From a virus, in IMG/VR virus record IMGVR_UViG_3300028840_000127, positions 1-37,927 of that record: a stretch of DNA of 37,927 nucleotides. One strand, written 5' to 3'. Under the pieces are notes generated by a model. That model was not told the DNA's origin. It made no database searches and saw only the letters and a list, made by a program, of their open reading frames with translations. The translations under genes were made by a program, and so were the position numbers. Position 1 is the stretch's first letter, and each line of letters opens with the position of its first letter. This document shows, piece after piece, positions 8,718-35,507 of this stretch.

Positions 8718-9596
8718 TTAACTACCCGCACGCTTGCTGCGCTTGTAAGCGGTGACCTTTGAATAGTCGCCGCTTTTTTCCGCTTGAGCGCGTAATCGTT
8801 CTAAGTTTGAGTCAACCGTTCCCGACTTCATGGCCTTGCCTGTGATAGTCGATTCCGGTTTCGTGCTTGCCTTCCTGTTCGTTACTTTCAACTGTGTCTC
8901 CAGCTTCGCAACAGCGAAGGCAAACTTCACGGGGTCTTTTATGGATGCAATTTCCTTAGCCTTCTTGGGGTTCTTCCCCAGGGCGTACACGACCAGCGCG
9001 GGGTTGTCAGCGCCCTGCAGGATCATACCCTGCTGGGTGTTGCTCAACTCGTCCTGCACAACTGTCTCGGCGTCTTCAAAGTCCTTGACCTTGAGCGTCT
9101 TGCGGTGTTCGCCGTAGGTGGCCAAGGTGGCGTTCCAGGCGTCTTGTTGACTACGCCGTTCTGCTTCCTGCCTTTCCTGCTGCGCTTCAACCGCTTTTTT
9201 CCGGTCAAACCAGTCGGTCAGTTGCTGCTCGTATAAATCAGAATCGTAATCAGCGGCCTCAATGGTCGGCTTCTTGCCCAGTTCTACGGTCTTTGGTTGT
9301 ACCGTGCTGGAAAGTTTGGCCAGTTGGTCCTTGAGTTGCTTATTCTCCCTCTGCTGCTCTCTGTGGCTCTTGCGTAGGTCTCGGACCCACTCAGGTGCCT
9401 TTGCATCGTCCTCTGGGGGTGGCGACTCCCCCGCAATCTCAATGACAACGTCGTCCTCATCACCTTCTTCGTCTTCTGAGTCTACGTCGGCGCCCACCTC
9501 GTCGGCTTCTTCCTCATCGTCTACCTCAGTTTCTGAGTCTATTTCGGTGTCTAGTTCTTCGTCATCATCCTCAATAATTTCTGCCTGGTTATTCAT
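8718..9596 (-). CDS. Scaffolding protein, P22 gp8-like
   Basis: A 292-residue protein (P22 gp8 has 303) immediately before the coat gene. The first ~55 residues are almost entirely Asp/Glu. A central region of predicted coiled coil follows (residues ~75-170, with RKSHREQQRENKQLK). The C-terminus is a short basic helix-turn region (EKSGDYSKVTAYKRSKRAGS), as expected for the coat-binding end of gp8-type scaffolds. It directs procapsid assembly and leaves the head before or during packaging. The extreme acidity may also exclude DNA. The ATG at 9596 is preceded by a promoter-like sequence. Confidence 0.85.
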   Translation of the reverse strand: MNNQAEIIEDDDEELDTEIDSETEVDDEEEADEVGADVDSEDEEGDEDDVVIEIAGESPPPEDDAKAPEWVRDLRKSHREQQRENKQLKDQLAKLSSTVQPKTVELGKKPTIEAADYDSDLYEQQLTDWFDRKKAVEAQQERQEAERRSQQDAWNATLATYGEHRKTLKVKDFEDAETVVQDELSNTQQGMILQGADNPALVVYALGKNPKKAKEIASIKDPVKFAFAVAKLETQLKVTNRKASTKPESTITGKAMKSGTVDSNLERLRAQAEKSGDYSKVTAYKRSKRAGS

Positions 9597-9697: not shown

Positions 9698-10198
9698 CTA
9701 GGGGCGTTGGTACTGTACGCCGCCAGGTTGGAACCCAAGGTATCGCTGCTCAGAATAGAAGTCAGGGTTCCTGAACCTCAACGGCTGGTTGGCCAGTTGC
9801 CCGGCCATGCCCATGTCTTGTTGTGCCGGCATAGCCTGCTGCTGCGGGTTGATTTGCTGCTGGTACTGCTGCTGCATGTACTGCTGGTACTGCATCGGGT
9901 CCATCTGCTGGCCATCTGCAGGCACCTGCTGTTGCTGCTGCTGGTATTGCTGCTGCATCTGCCGCTGGTACTCGTAAGGGTCAACCTGCTGTTGCTGTGG
10001 CGCCATTTGCTGCTGGAACTGCCCCAGCATATATTGCTGGTACTGCATTGGGTCCATCTGCTGCTGTGTTGCCGGGTTGTTCTGGGTGGCGTTGTAGTAG
10101 CCGATGTTAATCGGCGGGATGCTGCCGGCAAAGCTGTTCTGCGTTGACTGCATCATGTTGCCGAAGTTGTCGCCGCCGTACATTGCATTTCCAAACAT
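9698..10198 (-). CDS. Gln-rich, prion-like repeat protein of the head operon
   Basis: A 166-residue protein dominated by Gln, Met, Tyr and Pro. The core unit, close to MDPMQYQQYM followed by Q runs, occurs twice exactly and a third time as VDPYEYQRQM. The N-terminus is Asn/Gly-rich (MFGNAMYGGDNFGNMM) and the C-terminus is a more ordered FRNPDFYSEQRYLGFQPGG. It lies between the ART-GNAT gene and the scaffold, where P22 has no gene. Its composition resembles low-complexity proteins that phase-separate or self-associate. A role in head assembly, or as a packaged internal protein, is inferred from place only. It has a clean ATG start and its own ribosome site (AGGAGAG). Confidence 0.75.
   Translation of the reverse strand: MFGNAMYGGDNFGNMMQSTQNSFAGSIPPINIGYYNATQNNPATQQQMDPMQYQQYMLGQFQQQMAPQQQQVDPYEYQRQMQQQYQQQQQQVPADGQQMDPMQYQQYMQQQYQQQINPQQQAMPAQQDMGMAGQLANQPLRFRNPDFYSEQRYLGFQPGGVQYQRP
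9881..9910. repeat. Internal 30-base direct repeat, copy 1
   Basis: This stretch matches 10034-10063 at 28 of 30 bases and encodes the repeated QQMDPMQYQQ segment of the Gln-rich protein. The two differences are both C/T and silent or nearly so, which suggests recent duplication within the gene or strong constraint on the peptide. Confidence 0.85.
10034..10063. repeat. Internal 30-base direct repeat, copy 2
   Basis: Second copy of the repeat at 9881-9910, differing at two positions, in the same reading frame of the Gln-rich gene. Confidence 0.85.
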
Positions 10199-10216: not shown

Positions 10217-12010
10217 CTATATTGGGCTGAGATCCATTAGCGCCTTGGCAAGTTCTTTTTCTCGCTCGCCCAGGTAGTCGTAGCCTTGCCTCATGGCGCC
10301 AAGTATGTAGCTGTCACCTGCCGCCTTTTTAATCGCCGGGACATAGGGCGCGATAGCGCCACCGATACCCTGCATTATTTGCTCGCCGTACTGCTGACCC
10401 TGCTCAGTCCTTGGCTGATAGTTGAAGTAGTCTTCAGTCTCGCGCCTGCCCTGGGCCATTTCTTCGGCGCTGTAGTTAACGCCTGGCACATACCTGTCGG
10501 CGGCGTATCGAGCAATGGCACCAGGTGCCGACAATAATGGCCCGGCCATAGCCGACACAACGTCAGCAGACAGGTCAGCAACCCCGGCAGTCTTCATGAT
10601 GCCGCTGAGTAACTGCTGCTGCACGCTGGTCAAAAGGTCTGGTTCTGGCTGCGTTCGGATGGAGCTGGCAAAGTCCCGATTCGCTTGTTGCATCAGGTCG
10701 CCGCCAGTCGGCGCCAGCATCGCTTCCTCGTCCTCGGCGGCGGGTGGCATCCTGACGCCCATGCCGCCTGTATCGGCGCTGGCGGTTCCTCCTACTGTCG
10801 CTGCGGTGGCCGCGCCAACCGGCTTATACATGGATTCTGATATCTCAAAATCCTTTTTTTTACCTTTGTTCTCTATAAATCCTTGCTCTTTGTAAAACTT
10901 TTTCAGCCGGCTCAAGCTGGTCGCGCCGAAATCCGTAGTTGGCGTGAGAGCTAGAGGCTTTCCTTCTTGGTCTGCGTACTCAGTTAAGTCGCTCACTATT
11001 TGGGCGCCAATGCCGCTGCCTTGCTGATCAGGAGGGACAATCATTTTCGATATGGTTATATTGTTCCCGGCCTCATACACGTCGAGCAATACTTCAGGGT
11101 ATTTGGCTTTTATGGCAGACAACGACTTCCCCGTAGCACTCAACGGCCCAGCCTGGGCTTCCTCCGGTGTAATGGTGCCTGCTGCGATGGCTGCGGCAAT
11201 CGGGACGCTGACGCCGTACTTTTTGGTAATGTCAATCAGCTTGTCGTCGAACACAACGTAGTTGAATGATTGTTTGTCGGGTGATTTGTGCCGGGTAGAT
11301 GCGTCAGCGTATTGGACGCCCTTGATGCCTGCATCCTTGAGCATTTGGGCCGCGTCTTCAGCGCCATCCTCTTCAAGGTATCGAACAAGGTCCATCCCGT
11401 ATGCGTTATCGCGGCGACGCGCTGCAGCATTGATCGCGCCTTCTTCTGCGTACTGATACCAGTCTGTCTTCTTCAACGCGTTCATTACGCTTTCGGACTG
11501 CTCATCAAGTGGCAAATCCCAGTCGATGAACTCATCCGGTGTGGCGTCAATGTTGACCTCGTACATTGAGCCTTTGCTGGTGGTCGTTATGCGCCCTGAG
11601 TCAACCAGTGACTTGATGCGATCAGCTACTTCAGGAAGATCATTATCTGCCGCTGCTCGCATTGCTTGGTCAGCGTCTCCGTACACGCTCAAAAAACCCA
11701 CGGCGTTATTGTATTCTTGGTCTTTTATAGCCAACTCACGGGATTTTGGAGACAGCAAATCTTCTCCGTCTATTTTTACTCTGCTACCTGTACCCGCTTT
11801 TCGGTAACCTTCTGCCGTCTTTTCTCTTTCGGCAAAGTACAGTCCGCGTCCATACGCCTGGGCACCCTCGCCTGTCCCGATCTGGGACGTGCTGAACTCA
11901 TCAAAGCTGTAAGGCGAACCGTGATACGCCCGGATTCCTTCAACGGCAGCCTCATCACCCGCATCAGCACGCTTGGCCAGCTCCGCAAGCGCCCTTGTAA
12001 GTTTAGACAT
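10217..12010 (-). CDS. ADP-ribosyltransferase-like + GNAT-like fusion with ejection-protein-type C-terminus
   Basis: A 597-residue multidomain protein. Residues ~27-262 resemble the ADP-ribosyltransferase-like domain of phage polyvalent proteins: AYHGSPYSFDEF, then YGRGLYFAE, then EVNID and NYVVFDDKLIDI. Residues ~318-395 resemble a GNAT acetyltransferase, with the acetyl-CoA loop PPDQQGSGIGAQIV and a LKKFYKEQGF ending. Residues ~440-597 are low-complexity and helical and include YQPRTEQGQQ, an element also present in the gp16-like ejection protein at 30702. The ATG overlaps the portal stop (TAATG), so it is made with the portal. The likely picture is a virion-carried enzyme delivered into the host to modify proteins. 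Catalysis by either domain is not proven, and the substrate is unknown. Confidence 0.72.
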   Translation of the reverse strand: MSKLTRALAELAKRADAGDEAAVEGIRAYHGSPYSFDEFSTSQIGTGEGAQAYGRGLYFAEREKTAEGYRKAGTGSRVKIDGEDLLSPKSRELAIKDQEYNNAVGFLSVYGDADQAMRAAADNDLPEVADRIKSLVDSGRITTTSKGSMYEVNIDATPDEFIDWDLPLDEQSESVMNALKKTDWYQYAEEGAINAAARRRDNAYGMDLVRYLEEDGAEDAAQMLKDAGIKGVQYADASTRHKSPDKQSFNYVVFDDKLIDITKKYGVSVPIAAAIAAGTITPEEAQAGPLSATGKSLSAIKAKYPEVLLDVYEAGNNITISKMIVPPDQQGSGIGAQIVSDLTEYADQEGKPLALTPTTDFGATSLSRLKKFYKEQGFIENKGKKKDFEISESMYKPVGAATAATVGGTASADTGGMGVRMPPAAEDEEAMLAPTGGDLMQQANRDFASSIRTQPEPDLLTSVQQQLLSGIMKTAGVADLSADVVSAMAGPLLSAPGAIARYAADRYVPGVNYSAEEMAQGRRETEDYFNYQPRTEQGQQYGEQIMQGIGGAIAPYVPAIKKAAGDSYILGAMRQGYDYLGEREKELAKALMDLSPI

Positions 12011-14151
12011 TACTGGCCACCCTGCGCGATGCGGATCAGCTCCTCGGTTGACATGCTCGCCATGTCAGGTTCGCGCTGCGGCATCTGCTGGGGTTGCTGC
12101 GGCATCTGGCCGCCCATCATGCTGCTCATCTCACGGACTTGCTCTGCGGCCTTGATCATGCGCCCCTGGTCCTCTGTCTTGATCTTGCTCAAGGTTTCCA
12201 TCGTGTTGGCCTCGGTCTCTGACGCCTTGGCAACAGACAGCAGGGTATCCGCCTTGGTCTTCTCGGCCTTGGCTGTCTCGTTCAGCGCGGCTGCCTTCAG
12301 GTACTCGGCATTGGCGTCTGGCTGTGCGTTCTGTGCAGCTTCGGCCAGGTCTGCGGCTTCCTGTTCTGACGGCTGGATGACGCCCATCTTGACCAGCTTG
12401 GTGCGGTAATACTTACGCACATCGCCCAAGCCCTCGCCTTCCATGTTCATCATCGCCATCGCGTTGAGGATGGCCATGTTTTCCGGGTCTTGTGTCATCT
12501 GCATCATGGCAGTCAGCGACCGCACCGTGCTGGCACGCTTGCTGGATGATGACGGGCCAACGTCAACGGACAGGTCGAACTTGGCATCGCGCAGGTCGTT
12601 CTCGTACTCGATCTCGCCGGTCTCTGGGTTCAGCATTGGCTTGCCCAGCTCAACCTGGCCGGCCTCATACTCGCTGTTGAGCGTCTTCATCTTGCGCCCG
12701 CTCTCGACCAGGATGTCCTTGGCCATTGACAGCCAGACCTCGCCTGATCGCTTGATGGCCTTGCTCATGTTGCTCATGTAGATGAACGCCTGCATGTCCA
12801 GCCTGGACTGCACCAGCTCGATGGCTTTGCCGCTGACGTTGGGCTGTATCTGCTCACCGGCGTCCTGGCGCCCAAGCAACTCCTGCATGTCCATGTCGGT
12901 GATCTGCAGCAGCGCCGCCATTGCAGGCGGGATCTGTGGCGACTTGGTGTAACCAATCGGGCCGGACGCCATAGCGGCGCCGGTCGCGTCGGTGATCGGG
13001 TTGACCAGCAGGTAAGGGTAATCCTTCAGATTATCCTCGGCCCACATTATCTCATAGCCTGCCACCTGCTCGGGTAGCATGATGGGTTTCTCGACCGTGG
13101 ACAGGGCGCTGATCTCGGCCAGCTTGGATAGCTGCATGTTCTTCAGGCGCTGCACGTCCTTGGCTAGGCGCACATGGCCCATGCACCGCTCGACGTTGTC
13201 AACAAACCACCGCTTGCCGTAGACCATAACGATGGGGATGCACTGCCCGGCGATGTAGCCGCAATCCTCTAGGATCGCGCCGCCAGACATGATGTACTTG
13301 TGGACTTTCTTTTTCTTGGTTTTTTTCTCGCCCGTCTTGCGAGTGCCGATAGCCATCAGCGTATCTTCGAGCATCTCATCGTTCTCGAAGTCGGCGTCGG
13401 TGTACCGCTCCTCCTCGCCTTCTAGGGTGGTGTAGATGTGGACCGTGTGCCGTACTTCCTCGACCTTGTACAGCTCGGCGACATAGACCACGTCGCCAGC
13501 GCACCAGTCGAACTCGGTCATGGTAATGTCTTTGGGCCACGATGCCGGTGAGTCACCCCAGGTCTCCTCGTACTCTGACTCGGTCATGCTGGTCAGCACA
13601 TAGCACCGCTTGGCGTCTGACTTGTCCTGGCGCTTGGCGCCCAGGTCGAAAAACACCGTGCTGTCGGCGTCGTAGATCGGCTCGATGCTGACACGCTGAC
13701 GGTCATCGTCATCGTCTTCGTCGTCCTCGTAAACTGCACGCAGGCGCCAGGCACCTATGCCACCGCCAACAGCCTCCTCGAAAGCGTTGTCGTATGCCTC
13801 GTCGGCGCTGCTAAACTCCTCGTCGGATCGGTATAGCCCGTCGCAGGTATCCGCCAGCTTGTCGTTCTCAGCGCCTTCCTTCGGGATGAAGTCAACCGTG
13901 ATGCGGTTGTTGCGGTACTCGTTGATGATCCGCATGACGCTGAGGTGGACCTTGTTAATCTCCATCTTAGGGCGGTTGGCGAACTGCTCATCAAGCGGGC
14001 CTTCCCACTGGGCGCCGGCAATAGAATAGAACCGGCGATCCTCCAAGCACTGCATTCGCTCATCGCGCACGGCGGACTGGATGTCGTCAAACTCGGTCAG
14101 CGCATCGGCGTGAACTGCCTGCAGGCGTTGTTCTTTAGATTGTCGTGCCAT
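12010..14151 (-). CDS. Portal protein, P22 gp1-like
   Basis: A 713-residue protein (P22 gp1 has 725) that lies directly after the large terminase. It has the P22-type portal opening, with QRLQAVHADALTEFDDI and a DRRFYSIAGAQWEG element, then MRIINEYRNNRITVDFIP. An acidic loop around residues 145-153 and a long C-terminal helical region of the barrel type (residues ~590-690, Ala/Glu/Lys-rich) follow. It forms the dodecameric DNA channel at one head vertex and docks the terminase and gp4. The ATG is at 14151, 36 bases past the terminase stop. The end is Gln/Met/Pro-rich (GGQMPQQPQQMPQ). Confidence 0.92.
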   Translation of the reverse strand: MARQSKEQRLQAVHADALTEFDDIQSAVRDERMQCLEDRRFYSIAGAQWEGPLDEQFANRPKMEINKVHLSVMRIINEYRNNRITVDFIPKEGAENDKLADTCDGLYRSDEEFSSADEAYDNAFEEAVGGGIGAWRLRAVYEDDEDDDDDRQRVSIEPIYDADSTVFFDLGAKRQDKSDAKRCYVLTSMTESEYEETWGDSPASWPKDITMTEFDWCAGDVVYVAELYKVEEVRHTVHIYTTLEGEEERYTDADFENDEMLEDTLMAIGTRKTGEKKTKKKKVHKYIMSGGAILEDCGYIAGQCIPIVMVYGKRWFVDNVERCMGHVRLAKDVQRLKNMQLSKLAEISALSTVEKPIMLPEQVAGYEIMWAEDNLKDYPYLLVNPITDATGAAMASGPIGYTKSPQIPPAMAALLQITDMDMQELLGRQDAGEQIQPNVSGKAIELVQSRLDMQAFIYMSNMSKAIKRSGEVWLSMAKDILVESGRKMKTLNSEYEAGQVELGKPMLNPETGEIEYENDLRDAKFDLSVDVGPSSSSKRASTVRSLTAMMQMTQDPENMAILNAMAMMNMEGEGLGDVRKYYRTKLVKMGVIQPSEQEAADLAEAAQNAQPDANAEYLKAAALNETAKAEKTKADTLLSVAKASETEANTMETLSKIKTEDQGRMIKAAEQVREMSSMMGGQMPQQPQQMPQREPDMASMSTEELIRIAQGGQ

Positions 14152-20846: not shown

Positions 20847-21299
20847 ATGAACGAAACAATAAAAAAACTGGGCGCATGCGAAGAGGGCCTAGACTGGCTT
20901 GGGGACAAGCCACTAGATGCCGCATGGGCAGAGTGCCACCGTGGTGACTGGATGCTGTGGGTGGCAGATAAAGTTGGTGTTGACATAAAGACACTGACCT
21001 TGGCAAAAGTTAGGTGTGCAAGGCTGGTCCAGCACCTAATGAAAAATCAGCGTAGTTTAGATGTTCTGGTAATCGCTGAGGCTTTTGCAGGAGGAAAAGC
21101 AACAGCAGCGCAGTTAGAGGCTGCTTATGCTGCTGCTGCTGCTGCTGCTGATGCTGCTGCTGCTGATGCTGCTTATGCTGCTGCTGATGCTGCTTCTTAT
21201 GCTGCACGAAATAAAACACAACATCAGTGCGCAGAGATATGCCGGGATACCATACCGCTGCACGATGTCTTGAGGCTGATAAAGGAGCAAGGCGAATGA
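20847..21299 (+). CDS. Ala-rich helical protein with GCT repeat tract
   Basis: A 150-residue protein. The N-terminal ~85 residues form a conserved-looking helical part (GACEEGLDWLGD, GDWMLWVADKVGV, VRCARLVQHLMK). An Ala-dominated segment from residue ~92 is punctuated by Asp and Tyr, and a short C-terminal helix follows. I have seen this layout in a widespread group of small proteins sometimes labelled immunity-protein-like, but the function is not established. The Ala tract is encoded by pure GCT runs, which may vary in length between isolates. The last base of the upstream stop adjoins this ATG. Confidence 0.68.
   Translation: MNETIKKLGACEEGLDWLGDKPLDAAWAECHRGDWMLWVADKVGVDIKTLTLAKVRCARLVQHLMKNQRSLDVLVIAEAFAGGKATAAQLEAAYAAAAAAADAAAADAAYAAADAASYAARNKTQHQCAEICRDTIPLHDVLRLIKEQGE
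21129..21206 (+). repeat. In-frame GCT trinucleotide repeat tract
   Basis: The tract reads GCT seven times, GAT, GCT four times, GAT, GCT twice, TAT, GCT twice more and so on, all in the Ala frame. Pure triplet runs are prone to slippage that changes length without frameshift, so this is a possible hypervariable linker. Confidence 0.9.
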
Positions 21300-30543: not shown

Positions 30544-30705
30544 ATCAGGCCGCCCTAGGATGCTTTCGCCCGTGCGGCGTATGGTACGAAACTCATCGCC
30601 AAGGATCATGACGACAATGCCCTGGCGCTGGTTGCGTTCGTACTCAGCCCAACCCAACCCCACCAGGCGGTCGCAAGTGCCCTGTTGGGGTTGGGTTAAC
30701 CTCAC
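30538..30705 (-). CDS. Small protein after the ejection genes (55 aa)
   Basis: A 55-residue frame that starts with GTG, overlapping the gp16-like stop as GTGA, and ends in TAG against the convergent mini-operon. The second half looks like a folded segment (RQGIVVMILGDEFRTI, then RRTGESILGR). The family is not recognised. A large hairpin (30651-30697) lies within its first codons and may slow or regulate its translation, or may instead be the real feature here. Confidence 0.48.
   Translation of the reverse strand: MRLTQPQQGTCDRLVGLGWAEYERNQRQGIVVMILGDEFRTIRRTGESILGRPDL
30651..30697 (-). other. 12-base-pair stem-loop directly after the gp16-like gene
   Basis: AACCCAACCCCA and TGGGGTTGGGTT pair perfectly over 12 bases around a 23-base loop, which can pair again (CAGG/CCTG). 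On the minus strand it begins five bases past the ejection gene stop. No T run follows. Candidate roles are mRNA 3'-end protection, attenuation, or control of the 55-residue frame that it overlaps. Confidence 0.8.
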
Positions 30706-32567
30706 TCTGGTGCTACTGGTAGGGTGTTAGGCTCCTGCGTTTCCATCTTGCGGCGCAGCAGTTCTTCGATGGCTTTCAAAGCGTTAGCCTCATTGACGCC
30801 ACGAACTTTCTCAATACCGGCTTTAAGCATCTCAAACGCGGTAGTTGTTGCGTCGCTCCTGGCTATGTCAATGCCTTTGTTCAACGCCTGCTCCATCTGA
30901 CCCTTCAAACTGGTAGACGCTGTGGCACCAAACATGCGGTCTATTTCATTGGCAACAATGACCTGGTTGATAATGTTGTCTTTTATCTTAAGCCCATACT
31001 TGGCGGCGATCTGATCAGCCAAAGCCAAAGAGTCCATCAACGGGATGCGGCTGCCGTAATTACTCAACAATTTCCGCATTTCTTGCCCAAGTGCTTTATC
31101 AGCGTTGGGGCTATCCAGGTCAATCCTTTTACCCATCGCGCTTTGTAACTCATCCAGCGCACCAAGCGTTTCGCTGAACGTGGTATTGGCTTCCTTGTAG
31201 GCCGGGAATGCTTCGCCCAGCGCAGTGTTAAGGTCGCGCCGCAGCCCCTTAACAACACGCTCTGCTTGCTTAGTCAACGGATTGGCCTTGCTCTTGCCAT
31301 ACTGGACCTGGGTGTCGATAAACCGCTTGGCCAGGTGAACCTTGTAGGCGTCTGGCACATCAGTATTATCAAAACGAGCAAGGATTCTGTTTAGCAATGC
31401 TTGGGCGGCCCTGTCACCTTCAATGTCTGATCCGCGCAGCACTGCGACAAGGTTGCCCTCATTGTTACGGTTCAGGGTGACGCCGATATCGTTTAGCGAT
31501 GTCTCGAACTTGGTCATTGCTGGTTCATATGCAACCGGCTTGCGGATCATTGTCTCTTTAGCAATCCGGTCAATCTCGGCGCCGCTTTCTTTTTTAGTAT
31601 CAACAAGGAACTTAACCCGTTCATCAACGGACTGCCCGATGATATCAGTTGGGCGCCGGGTAGCTCGCAACATCTCATCGCGCTGGCCGGCTTTGTACCG
31701 TTGCACCATCTGCAGCGCCTTGGTGCGGTCTAGGTCTGTGCCGGCCTTCATCGCGGCAATAACCCCCGGTTGCCAGCCTTGCTTAATAGCTGCCTCTGCC
31801 AAATTGTCTCGGACAATACGCTCGGCGCCAGGTGGCCCCTTGACCATCACGGGTGCATTAGCAACATTGTAAGGTTGGGCCTTCGCCAGTTCCACGCTTG
31901 GCGCGTCGCGCCTAATTCCTGGTGCCTCTACCGCACGCTTGACTGCGCCGGCAACCTGCCCAACGGGAGACTCGGCCACGGCTTCTGCGCCTCGGCGTAC
32001 TGCACCAGTTGCAGAGGCAGCAGCGGCACCTGTGGCAGGCGCAATCGGCCCGGCTAGGCGTGCAGCTTGCCCTGCCGCAGCCAGTTCCCCCGTTGCACCG
32101 GCCAATGGCGCCAGGTAACGGCCCGCAAACTCGCCAGCAGCCTGCGTCATCTGCTGACCCTGCTCGGTCCTTGGTTGGTAAGTATACTTGGCACCTAATT
32201 GTTCAGCGGCTTGCTTGATGCGCTGGGCTGCGTCTGCTGTACCAAACTTGCCGGACTGGATTTCTTCCGCAAGCTGGAGCAACGTGCCGCGCACTTGGCC
32301 ACCCATACCTGTAGTGGAACCGGTGGCCATCGTCAGCGCAGTCTCGCCAACACCAATTGCTTGCTCACCCATCGTTGGTTCGGGTTGTAACACTGGTGGC
32401 TCAACGTACTGGCCCTCGGGCGTGACGGCTGATTCAGCAAAACCAGGGATACCCATTTCGTAATCTGGTTGCGCCAATTCTGGAGCCGCGACTTCTTCCT
32501 CATCTATAAGAAGCCCGCCAAACTTGCTGGTATTTGCGACAGCAACGCCGCCGAATTTCGATGGCAT
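30702..32567 (-). CDS. gp16-like DNA ejection protein
   Basis: A 621-residue protein at the gp16 position of the P22 order (P22 gp16 has 609 residues). The N-terminus has two PSKFGG-type elements (PSKFGGVAV, TSKFGGLLID). A TYQPRTEQGQQ segment lies at about residues 130-140, then an Ala/Gly-rich stretch, then a long helical C-terminal two-thirds. gp16 leaves the head with the DNA and helps it cross the cell envelope. The ATG follows the gp20-like stop by two bases. The YQPRTEQGQQ element is shared with the ART-GNAT protein. The assignment rests mainly on order, length and type, so fine details are inferred. Confidence 0.72.
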   Translation of the reverse strand: MPSKFGGVAVANTSKFGGLLIDEEEVAAPELAQPDYEMGIPGFAESAVTPEGQYVEPPVLQPEPTMGEQAIGVGETALTMATGSTTGMGGQVRGTLLQLAEEIQSGKFGTADAAQRIKQAAEQLGAKYTYQPRTEQGQQMTQAAGEFAGRYLAPLAGATGELAAAGQAARLAGPIAPATGAAAASATGAVRRGAEAVAESPVGQVAGAVKRAVEAPGIRRDAPSVELAKAQPYNVANAPVMVKGPPGAERIVRDNLAEAAIKQGWQPGVIAAMKAGTDLDRTKALQMVQRYKAGQRDEMLRATRRPTDIIGQSVDERVKFLVDTKKESGAEIDRIAKETMIRKPVAYEPAMTKFETSLNDIGVTLNRNNEGNLVAVLRGSDIEGDRAAQALLNRILARFDNTDVPDAYKVHLAKRFIDTQVQYGKSKANPLTKQAERVVKGLRRDLNTALGEAFPAYKEANTTFSETLGALDELQSAMGKRIDLDSPNADKALGQEMRKLLSNYGSRIPLMDSLALADQIAAKYGLKIKDNIINQVIVANEIDRMFGATASTSLKGQMEQALNKGIDIARSDATTTAFEMLKAGIEKVRGVNEANALKAIEELLRRKMETQEPNTLPVAPE

Positions 32568-32569
32568 GG

Positions 32570-33865
32570 TTATGGCTTCCTGTATGTTTGGCCGTCTTCT
32601 TCGGTGTACAGCGACCCGGACGGCAGCGCGGCAAACTCGGCAGCAGTCGTTACCATAGGTAACACGCTACTATCCTGCCCGTCTGTAAACACGTCAGCAG
32701 GGTTAAGACCAAGCCTAGCAACGATACCCTCCATTGACTTGCGGGTCTTGGCCCCATCCTTTTCTGCAGCGGCGAGGTACTGCTTTGCAAGATTAACAAA
32801 AGTGGTTCGTTGCGGGTTCGTTAAAAATTGACCACCTTTGGCTTTTGTTAACAAGTTTTCTAGCGATGTCAACAGACCACCAGTGTCTCTGGCAACCGCA
32901 AACTCAGACTCGCGAACAGTTGAGCCAGGGTCGAGCATTTTCATGAATGAAGTGATCAACGCAACGTCGCCCAAACCTTCTTGGATTTTTGCGGATTCTT
33001 CCATTTTTTGGAAGTTAACTCGACCAGCAGTAACGTCGCCTACCCGCTTGTTGTATTCTGTACGCAAATCTTTGGATGCTGTGTATCGCTTGTCTGGATC
33101 GTAAATTATACCGGTTGGATTTTGTGCTTCAATTGTAAACAAGTTTCTTGCAGTATCCTGACTGACCCCAGCACCCTTGTAAGAATCAATAATTTTCTGT
33201 GTGGTCTTTGGATTGACGCCCATATTGGTGCCAAGCTGCATTAACTGAAAGTCTTGCTCGGCAAGTGCGCCAGGCTGCAATTGGTTTTCACGAACATTCT
33301 TGGTACGTTTCTCATAGAATGACGCGTACTGCTCTGGACCCATGTTGGCGTTCAGGAACATATCGACAGTGGTCAGTGCCGCGTCGGGGTTCATCTCAAT
33401 CTGCTGCTTCAGTACCCCAAGCGAGTCTGCACCAGCAGTGTCGCCGCTGTTCTCTGCAGCCAAACGCTGCTTCTCGACAAGATCTACCGCAGCATTGACG
33501 CCGCCAGACGATAACGCAGACGATATCTGGGTGGCCTGCATCAACTTGTTTTGTTTCTGCTCGCTGTTGAGTATGTCAAAGTTGGCCTTGAGCGACTCAC
33601 CTAGTTGGGGGTATGCCAACATGACCGACTGCAGTGCTTGCGGGCTTGGCTTAGGACCCAACCCGGCCAGGGCTGCTTGGAACTCTTGCTGTTTGGCTTG
33701 CGCCTTTTGATACTCAGCAACTTTCATCTGGTTTAGATCAATGTTTTGCTGACCAATTTGCTGCTGCTGTTGGGCCTGCTGTATGGCGCCGGCGTCAGAA
33801 AACCCCTGCATCGCCATCTGCAGCGGGTTCTGTCCGCTTTGAAATGCTGCGTAATCAACTGCCAT
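32570..33865 (-). CDS. gp20-like DNA ejection protein
   Basis: A 431-residue protein (P22 gp20 has 471) in the gp7-gp20-gp16 order. It has an N-terminal MAMQGFSDAGAIQQAQQQQQ, a Gln-rich helical region up to about residue 70, then alternating helices and a C-terminal LPSGSLYTEEDGQTYRKP. The family is packaged in the head and expelled to form part of the trans-envelope conduit. The ATG is at 33865, 18 bases after the gp7-like stop. Confidence 0.78.
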   Translation of the reverse strand: MAVDYAAFQSGQNPLQMAMQGFSDAGAIQQAQQQQQIGQQNIDLNQMKVAEYQKAQAKQQEFQAALAGLGPKPSPQALQSVMLAYPQLGESLKANFDILNSEQKQNKLMQATQISSALSSGGVNAAVDLVEKQRLAAENSGDTAGADSLGVLKQQIEMNPDAALTTVDMFLNANMGPEQYASFYEKRTKNVRENQLQPGALAEQDFQLMQLGTNMGVNPKTTQKIIDSYKGAGVSQDTARNLFTIEAQNPTGIIYDPDKRYTASKDLRTEYNKRVGDVTAGRVNFQKMEESAKIQEGLGDVALITSFMKMLDPGSTVRESEFAVARDTGGLLTSLENLLTKAKGGQFLTNPQRTTFVNLAKQYLAAAEKDGAKTRKSMEGIVARLGLNPADVFTDGQDSSVLPMVTTAAEFAALPSGSLYTEEDGQTYRKP

Positions 33866-33882: not shown

Positions 33883-34656
33883 TTAATAGGTGCCAGGTGA
33901 ATTTGGATTAGGAACCATGCCGGGCATTGGTGTAACCGTGCTAGGCGCTGCGTTAGCAAAAGGACCATACCCCTGCATACCCATGCCGCCCAGGTAACCA
34001 ACTGAGCCGGCCACGTTGCCCCATGCCTGGCCTTTTGCCAGTGCGGCTTGCGCCTGCGCGTTGCCTGCCCCAATCTGCGCGTTACCGATGTTAGATGCCA
34101 TGTTCATACCTGCCGCGCCAACGCCGGCGCCAGACGCCTGGCCCATACTGGCAAGGTTCTGCGCTGCGTTGCCGCCAAAGGTCGCCATACCGCCCAGCTT
34201 CGTATACTTGTCTTCGATCATCTGAGATAGAACCGCTGGCCTGAATTGCGCCAAGGCTGCCTGGATGTTTCCGCCTCGCAGACCGCCAGTTGCTGATGCG
34301 TTCTGCAGAATGGCGTTCTCGCCCTGGCGAACTTGCTCCAAGTAGAGTGGCGACTGTTCAATGCGGTTGATTGCCTCCTGCTGTGCAGCAGGCCCAAACA
34401 TTCCGTTCAGCGCCTGCTGCTCATTCAGTGCTGGTTGGGCCACCTCTGAGTAGGACGCGATCTGGCGCAACGCAGGGTTGCCGGCGTCAACGTAGGGCTT
34501 TAGAACTTGCTGCATGGCCTGAAACTGCGCACGCTGCTCTGCAATGCTGGCATCTGCCGCTGCACCTTGGGCGTCAGCAGCTTTGCCGGCAGCCTTTGAT
34601 GACATTACCCCGCCAACAACGGCGCTTCCTATAATAGCTGTTGCTATTCCTGACAT
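33883..34656 (-). CDS. gp7-like DNA ejection protein
   Basis: A 257-residue protein (P22 gp7 has 229). The N-terminus is hydrophobic and Gly-rich (ATAIIGSAVVGGVMSSKAAG). A helical region (EQRAQFQAMQQVLKPYVDAG) and a Gly/Ala/Met-rich C-terminus (GYLGGMGMQGYGPF) follow. The N-terminal segment could insert into membrane during ejection. The start overlaps the end of the cupin-SET gene by 13 bases. The order with the next two genes matches P22 7-20-16. Confidence 0.78.
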   Translation of the reverse strand: MSGIATAIIGSAVVGGVMSSKAAGKAADAQGAAADASIAEQRAQFQAMQQVLKPYVDAGNPALRQIASYSEVAQPALNEQQALNGMFGPAAQQEAINRIEQSPLYLEQVRQGENAILQNASATGGLRGGNIQAALAQFRPAVLSQMIEDKYTKLGGMATFGGNAAQNLASMGQASGAGVGAAGMNMASNIGNAQIGAGNAQAQAALAKGQAWGNVAGSVGYLGGMGMQGYGPFANAAPSTVTPMPGMVPNPNSPGTY

Positions 34657-35507
34657 GATAATGCCTCAACTTTTAGCAAGGCGTTTGCCTGCCTGTAATC
34701 AACTGTTAATTCTTCGCCAGCAGACCCGCCTTGGCACCCGGCTATGTTTCGTTTTGCAATTAAGTAAATATCGCCGTTTTCGGTTTGTTTATAAATACAA
34801 TTTGGCGTTGCAGCATGGTTAACGTACCTGCCAGCCGGCGTTCTTTTCCCGTTAATTCTGGCCGGCGCTATGACAGACCCAGGCGTTACCGGCCAACTTA
34901 GAAACAAACCGTTGCCGGCAATGTCAGATTTTCTTATAGATGTGGCAGCAGCCCAACCATGAGGCATGTCGATAATATCGGAAACGTCTTCTGACTGAGC
35001 TTGCACGGTTTCTGCGTCAGTATCTAGCTGGGTTAGCATTTGAGTAAAGTCTTGCCGGTCAACCTCGCAAAGCGCATTCCTAAATTTTTTTTGCGGCACA
35101 TCATAATCAACCCAGGTATCGCTTTTTTCTAAATAAATAGACTCCAACTTGTCTATGTCTGTTTCGTCTGTTGCGTAAACATTTTGCCATACAACCGTTT
35201 CTAGCACATAACCCGTTTTACGCCCTGGCTCGCCAACAAATATTAAAGGCGCAGACAGCACAACCATTGCGCCATCCTTCTCCATAAGAACTTTACCAGT
35301 TATCATAATATTTAAATGTCTAAATTTTTGCCTGTGCCCGATGGCGAAGGTGCCCGCAGGCATGGTGACTTCGCGGATGTAGATGCCTGGGCCAAAATGG
35401 TGAGCGACTGGGCAGGAAGCCTGCGGCAGATTCAGCATCGCAGCTTCGACTTGCTCGATGCCTTCATGCTTTGCAATTGCTGTGGGTTTGACTAATGCTA
35501 CGCTCAA
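34644..35507 (-). CDS. Cupin-like + SET-domain fusion protein
   Basis: A 287-residue protein. Residues ~30-130 form a beta-rich cupin-like domain (GIYIREVTMPAGTFAIGH, LNIMITGKVLMEKDG). Residues ~186-272 show SET-domain marks: GNGLF (198-202), NHAATPNC (230-237) and EELTVDY (265-271). These are the SAM-binding and catalytic knot motifs of lysine methyltransferases. It begins with TTG at 35507 after AAAGGAG. The gene lies just before the ejection genes, so the protein may be carried in the virion and methylate a virion or host protein. DNA of the central and 3' parts is AT-rich compared with its 5' end, a hint of fusion or transfer. Activity is unproven. Confidence 0.72.
   Translation of the reverse strand: MSVALVKPTAIAKHEGIEQVEAAMLNLPQASCPVAHHFGPGIYIREVTMPAGTFAIGHRQKFRHLNIMITGKVLMEKDGAMVVLSAPLIFVGEPGRKTGYVLETVVWQNVYATDETDIDKLESIYLEKSDTWVDYDVPQKKFRNALCEVDRQDFTQMLTQLDTDAETVQAQSEDVSDIIDMPHGWAAATSIRKSDIAGNGLFLSWPVTPGSVIAPARINGKRTPAGRYVNHAATPNCIYKQTENGDIYLIAKRNIAGCQGGSAGEELTVDYRQANALLKVEALSCQE

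Follow-up and report, generated by a model that had tools for sequence, protein, structure and literature searches.

A polyvalent protein with ADP-ribosyltransferase and acetyltransferase domains in an exchangeable slot next to the portal gene as a probable virion cargo of a small P22-type podovirus

The window analyzed in this work is a whole IMG/VR virus record of 37,927 bases. Its open reading frame at 10217-12010 on the minus strand encodes a protein that contains an ADP-ribosyltransferase (ART) domain and a GNAT domain, and that we call the cargo protein after its proposed role. The domains, their catalytic residues, the gene context, the exchange of cargo and the distribution of a shared motif described below were established by comparison of sequences and structures. 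The earlier note had placed this gene directly after the portal gene, and the gene is real, with its ATG sharing one base with the portal stop codon (TAATG). Downstream of it follow the genes for a Q-rich small protein, the scaffold and a P22-type coat protein, and the ejection genes are located at the opposite end of the record. The short motifs first read in the protein are positioned at residues 29-33 (YHGSP), 56-61 (GLYFAE), 329-337 (QQGSGIGAQ) and 531-540 (YQPRTEQGQQ). The features of the locus and of the ejection gene region are as follows.

12010..14151, minus strand: P22-type portal gene (Pfam P22_portal, E 1e-152), directly upstream of the cargo gene
10217..12010, minus strand: polyvalent candidate cargo gene P0001 (597 aa, ATG start), with N-terminal tag, ART, linker, GNAT and constant C-terminal module
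11945..12010, minus strand: conserved N-terminal tag, residues 1-22 (MSKLTRALAELAKRADAGDEAA), retained on cargo swap and heading internal cassettes in relatives
11216..11938, minus strand: ART domain, residues 25-265, with H30, Y58 and D255/D256 (PF18760, E 9e-6; alignment, model and fold comparison)
11147..11224, minus strand: signal-peptide-like linker, residues 263-288 (KKY-GVSVPIAAAIAAGTI-TPEEAQA/G)
10781..11119, minus strand: GNAT domain, residues 298-410 (Acetyltransf_7, E 1.5e-5; phrog_10691, E 2e-29; model and fold)
10217..10768, minus strand: constant C-terminal module, residues 415-597 (GGMGV...DLSPI), plus stop codon
10391..10420, minus strand: motif YQPRTEQGQQ, residues 531-540 of the cargo protein
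9698..10198, minus strand: Q-rich small protein, between the cargo and scaffold genes
8718..9596, minus strand: scaffolding protein, directly behind the portal in distant relatives
33883..34656, minus strand: gp7-like ejection protein (phrog_598 'DNA ejection', E 9e-32)
32570-33865: second ejection gene, between the gp7-like and gp16-like genes
30702..32567, minus strand: gp16-like ejection protein of 621 aa (41% to the putative ejection protein gp19 of Pseudoalteromonas phage H6/1)
32151..32180, minus strand: second copy of the motif, in the gp16-like protein

The window contains two further genes of note. The product of 34644-35507 (minus strand) joins a tail-fibre-type N-terminus (phrog_12032, phrog_24280) to a C-terminal SET domain scoring above the Pfam cut-off (E 4e-7), and stretches about 31% similar to it are found in L102, L111, L115 and L120, which are phages that also have the ejection motif. 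The 150-aa open reading frame at 20847-21299 (plus strand) contains a long low-complexity repeat rich in Ala, Asp and Tyr (AAYAAAAAAADAAAADAAYAAADAA).

The ART-like domain proposed from the letters alone is borne out by its predicted fold. The AlphaFold model of residues 25-292 (pLDDT 79) has its best PDB match in chain B of 9k3a, a pre-ejectosome protein of cyanophage A4 (Foldseek E 8.8e-4, probability 1.00), to which it aligns in the region 1421-1604 with a Z score of 10.2 over 141 residues and an rmsd of 4.0. Thus, the ART fold is already known within a podovirus virion. Further matches are the catalytic domains of tankyrases (Z ~8-8.7) and diphtheria toxin (Z 8.1). The domain carries His on strand 1, Tyr on strand 2 and Asp on strand 5, and these catalytic residues are retained in the relatives, H30 and Y58 in all 16 aligned sequences, D255 and D256 each in 15 of them. 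The match to the Pfam family ART-PolyVal (PF18760) covers residues 27-75 with an E-value of 9e-6, and at 26.9 bits it misses the gathering score of 31.2, the relatives likewise falling just under it. Because of this score, the domain is filed as an H-Y-D type ART by its residues and fold, without Pfam certification as PF18760. Sequence searches of the PDB with the ART alignment, with P0001 and with the ejection block returned chance or low-complexity matches only. The first full-length MAFFT alignment, which mixed linkers with the C-terminus, was left out of the modelling.

The GNAT-like segment also holds up as a fold. Its core was modelled at a pLDDT of ~70-80, and its PDB matches are almost all GNATs (Foldseek, VIA), the best being AcrVA5 (PDB 6iuf) with a Z score of 10.0, an rmsd of 3.1 and 19% identity over 93 residues. 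The Q/RxxGxG/A acetyl-CoA loop is present as QGSGIG at residues 330-335 and as RGxGxA in most relatives. The Pfam scores are marginal, with PF00583 exactly at its cut-off and other families under theirs. Segments of very large proteins from phages of Vibrio, Serratia, Klebsiella and Pseudomonas, a number of them annotated as DarB-like antirestriction proteins, share 44-47% identity with this region. The gene therefore encodes two enzymatic domains of unrelated predicted activity in one polypeptide, as judged by Pfam and PHROG matches, residues and folds, and it lies among the virion genes of a portal-terminase phage, which are two marks of a polyvalent protein.

Comparison with related contigs revealed that the ends of this protein are constant and that its middle is exchanged. 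The 38-kb contig of L004 is 94% identical to the window at the DNA level until position 11946 (codon 22), loses all identity over the whole middle, and regains it at 93% from position 10768 (residue 415). In place of the ART and GNAT domains it encodes DUF7178 (E 1e-29) and another unit, so that the two proteins share their first 22 and last ~183 residues and carry entirely different cargo. In other alleles the same slot holds one ART or two, a 'SMGEARAAT' unit and further units, in varying orders and as head-to-tail cassettes; the tag of the N-terminus (AELAKRAAAGD...) is often repeated at the head of internal cassettes. The Q-rich protein encoded next is common to alleles with different cargo. 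L077 and L087, two contigs with 99.7-100% identity elsewhere, differ by one cassette of the ART protein, which is lost in frame (1170 bases). The corresponding gene of a second phage lineage is located between terminase and portal, and its cargo is again exchanged (ART, DUF7178, or LPD23 with a metallopeptidase). Portal relatives at ~55-63% identity mostly have no cargo gene, their scaffold gene following directly behind the portal. These observations suggest that the conserved N-terminus and the C-terminal module form a fixed chassis around an exchangeable cargo bay.

The C-terminal module itself was modelled at a pLDDT of only ~30. It had no match among phage GenBank records, and no prophage bearing it was confirmed in GTDB genomes. 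A second version of it (GGIMQGIG..WEDALKMIGGG...FFSPI) is found in L007, L069, L070 and L071; in L069 it is preceded by an ART-like unit, another unit and a GNAT. The exchange of cassettes among close relatives, such as the window and L004, suggests rapid selection on injected enzymes, which is the expectation in a race between defence and counter-defence.

Many cassettes close with ~15 uncharged, hydrophobic residues, often preceded by two lysines or arginines and followed by P-E-x-A-x-A-G. In sequence, this pattern is reminiscent of a signal peptide and its AxA cleavage site; cleavage of the linkers is a guess. Its frequencies (21/42 versus 3/525) are inflated by shared descent and by loci that were fetched via the linker, and are given as a description only. 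An alternative, which is compatible with our preferred reading and which we regard as rather doubtful, is that linkers with PEEAQA/G are mere seams of recombination that serve no purpose in the protein. They do sit at the module borders where cassettes join. However, linkers that do not align with one another, and are to that extent non-homologous, share the same P-E-x-A-x-A ending (e.g. LWSLALGSGLTAAGIAPEEAKA, VAATAVISGIAAVSAPDAQA, LPAAVASAGFLGAPEDAEA), and the ART linkers (n=11) are strongly diverged at synonymous sites while their amino acids are kept (pN/pS 0.2 at pS 0.57), so it is the amino acids that are conserved and not the DNA. For the C-terminal stretch of the ART, unaligned indels inflate pN/pS, and that value was not relied on.

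The element that the cargo protein has in common with the ejection protein is shorter than first thought. The earlier note had described the C-terminus as an ejection-protein-type segment, with YQPRTEQGQQ as the element shared with the gp16-like protein. The decamer YQPRTEQGQQ is indeed present in both, encoded by a 29-base DNA element with two copies in the window and no match in 100 shuffles, and the two DNA copies differ at synonymous positions only. A domain common to the cargo C-terminus and the ejection protein was considered on the basis of the full HMM (E 1e-7) and hhalign (P 1e-5), and was rejected when the similarity vanished once the 10 motif residues were masked. The masked ejection HMM still matches the gp16-like protein of the window (E 1e-7), whose flanking sequence thus places it in the ejection family, and finds no match in the cargo C-terminus. 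The claim is therefore cut from a domain to a short linear motif of ~10 residues.

The distribution of this motif is narrow. Across all IMG/VR contigs, the 24 matches to YQPRTExGQQ all fall in phage open reading frames of two kinds: most lie close to the N-terminal end of ejection-type proteins, and six stand ~55 residues before the end of cargo proteins encoded between terminase and portal. In three polyvalent proteins of the LPD23/metallopeptidase type (L105:282-2126, L116:486-2351 and L119:82-2517; the domains were tested in L105) the form YQPRTEDGQQ stands at the N-terminus, and in L119 this gene immediately follows the portal gene. L117:470-3085, which encodes an internal virion protein containing a lytic transglycosylase domain, has the motif at residue 352. 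The variant YAPRTExGQ has 58 matches, 56 of them in large phage open reading frames of the ejection type or of the terminase/portal-adjacent cargo type and two by chance, and most are backed by the motif-masked ejection HMM. As judged by sequence, YxPRTExGQ is the mark of a large podovirus ejection protein family; a text search of the literature for it gave no match. The motif is not strictly required, as far as sequences tell, because the C-termini of the second version lack its exact form.

Taken together, P0001 is probably a polyvalent protein that a small P22-type podovirus carries in its virion as cargo and ejects at infection, with the enzymes in its exchangeable middle part. Delivery with the DNA is likely in view of the exchange of cargo in a portal-adjacent slot, the linkers, the ejection motif and the match of the ART to a pre-ejectosome protein, and we infer packaging, for which there are precedents (PMC5512222, PMC9503650, cyanophage A4), the two activities, their targets and the role of the motif. 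The occurrence of the same portal-adjacent slot in many relatives speaks for this reading. The Pfam scores of both domains, at or under their curated cut-offs, speak against it, as do the low pLDDT of the C-terminal module, the loss of its similarity to ejection proteins upon masking and the second C-terminal version without the exact motif. According to this model, the cargo gene would be expressed late together with the portal and scaffold genes, and its product would be incorporated near the portal with the ejection proteins via the C-terminal module, YxPRTExGQ being the likely docking element to the portal or ejectosome. At infection it would be ejected with the gp7-like and gp16-like proteins, and once inside, host proteins, perhaps those of defence, would be ADP-ribosylated by the ART and acetylated by the minimal GNAT.

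A more specific version of this model is tentative, and we would not yet favour it. It proposes a portal-adjacent cargo bay of small podoviruses with constant ends, in which head-to-tail effector cassettes are swapped in the way known from polymorphic toxins, the motif docks the product in the pre-ejectosome, and the linkers are cut (e.g. by host signal peptidase), so that single enzymes would be released at the membrane during ejection.

It is unlikely that the protein is expressed late and never packaged, modifying host or virion-assembly proteins in the manner of T4 ModA/ModB or excluding superinfecting phages, with the motif an unimportant resemblance. Such a role would agree with the loss of the HMM match upon masking and with the C-terminal version that has no motif. 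It agrees poorly with a slot that in several lineages lies either between the portal and scaffold genes or between those for terminase and portal, with a motif almost confined to ejection and portal-adjacent genes, and with a pre-ejectosome protein as the nearest solved match of the ART fold. Still less probable is a mainly structural ejectosome component, with the ART fold as a building block without catalysis and the GNAT as a passenger: the ART-fold chain in the cyanophage A4 pre-ejectosome provides a precedent, but the (near-)invariance of the H-Y-D residues in 16 divergent sequences argues against it, as does a closely related phage without an ART, which means that the domain is not a required structural part.

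If the virion cargo reading is correct, a motif common to diverse ejection proteins and exchangeable cargo proteins would be a testable loading signal for podoviruses, as well as a means of recognizing new virion effectors in metagenomic sequences. How phages pick the enzymes that are loaded beside the genome is known for few systems. In T4, a capsid-targeting sequence makes this selection.

The combination of these two enzymes is not new. ART and GNAT domains were recognized together among the 'polyvalent proteins' (Iyer 2017, PMC5512222). Those polyvalent proteins, among them a GNAT family that neighbours ARTs and BAR32501.1 of an uncultured Mediterranean phage, resemble P0001 in joining an H-Y-D ART and a RimI-like GNAT in one polypeptide, in being encoded with the virion genes of a portal-terminase phage and in their predicted injection. 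Packaging of such ARTs was predicted earlier (PMC5512222, PMC9503650), and a context of virion genes is typical of phage ARTs that are thought to be packaged (PMC9503650). P0001 differs from them in its small size (597 aa) and in having no metallopeptidase; its signal-peptide-like linkers, its constant ends with an exchangeable middle and its C-terminal ejection motif are features that the portion of PMC5512222 drawn on here does not describe. As far as the literature was searched, a cargo bay with cassette exchange, signal-peptide-like linkers and a motif common to ejection and cargo proteins is undescribed.

Among individual proteins, gene 5 of Sulfitobacter phage phiGT1 (QLB38217) has an ART 40% identical to residues 25-268 and is located, like the cargo gene, between the portal and scaffold genes. 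It ends with a KYG-hydrophobic tail resembling the cargo linker, and it differs in having a single ART, no GNAT and no YxPRTExGQ. The pre-ejectosome protein of cyanophage A4 likewise holds an ART fold inside a podovirus virion, although it is a much larger chain with 10-15% identity. The analogy with T4 Alt drawn in the earlier note is kept only in that both ARTs are proposed to enter with the DNA, and is dropped for the ART class. Alt has an R-S-E ART of the Alt/VIP2 clade and polyvalent-protein ARTs follow the H-Y-D pattern (PMC5512222). The R-S-E triad is absent from the cargo ART, whose conserved residues on strands 1, 2 and 5 are H, Y and D. Alt also has no GNAT. AcrVA5 shares the minimal GNAT fold with the cargo GNAT, but it is a stand-alone protein and the common fold says nothing about a common target. 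Finally, the organization of the cargo gene is similar to that of polymorphic toxins, with a constant region, here with a presumed role in delivery, and an exchangeable effector, as illustrated by L004 and the other alleles.
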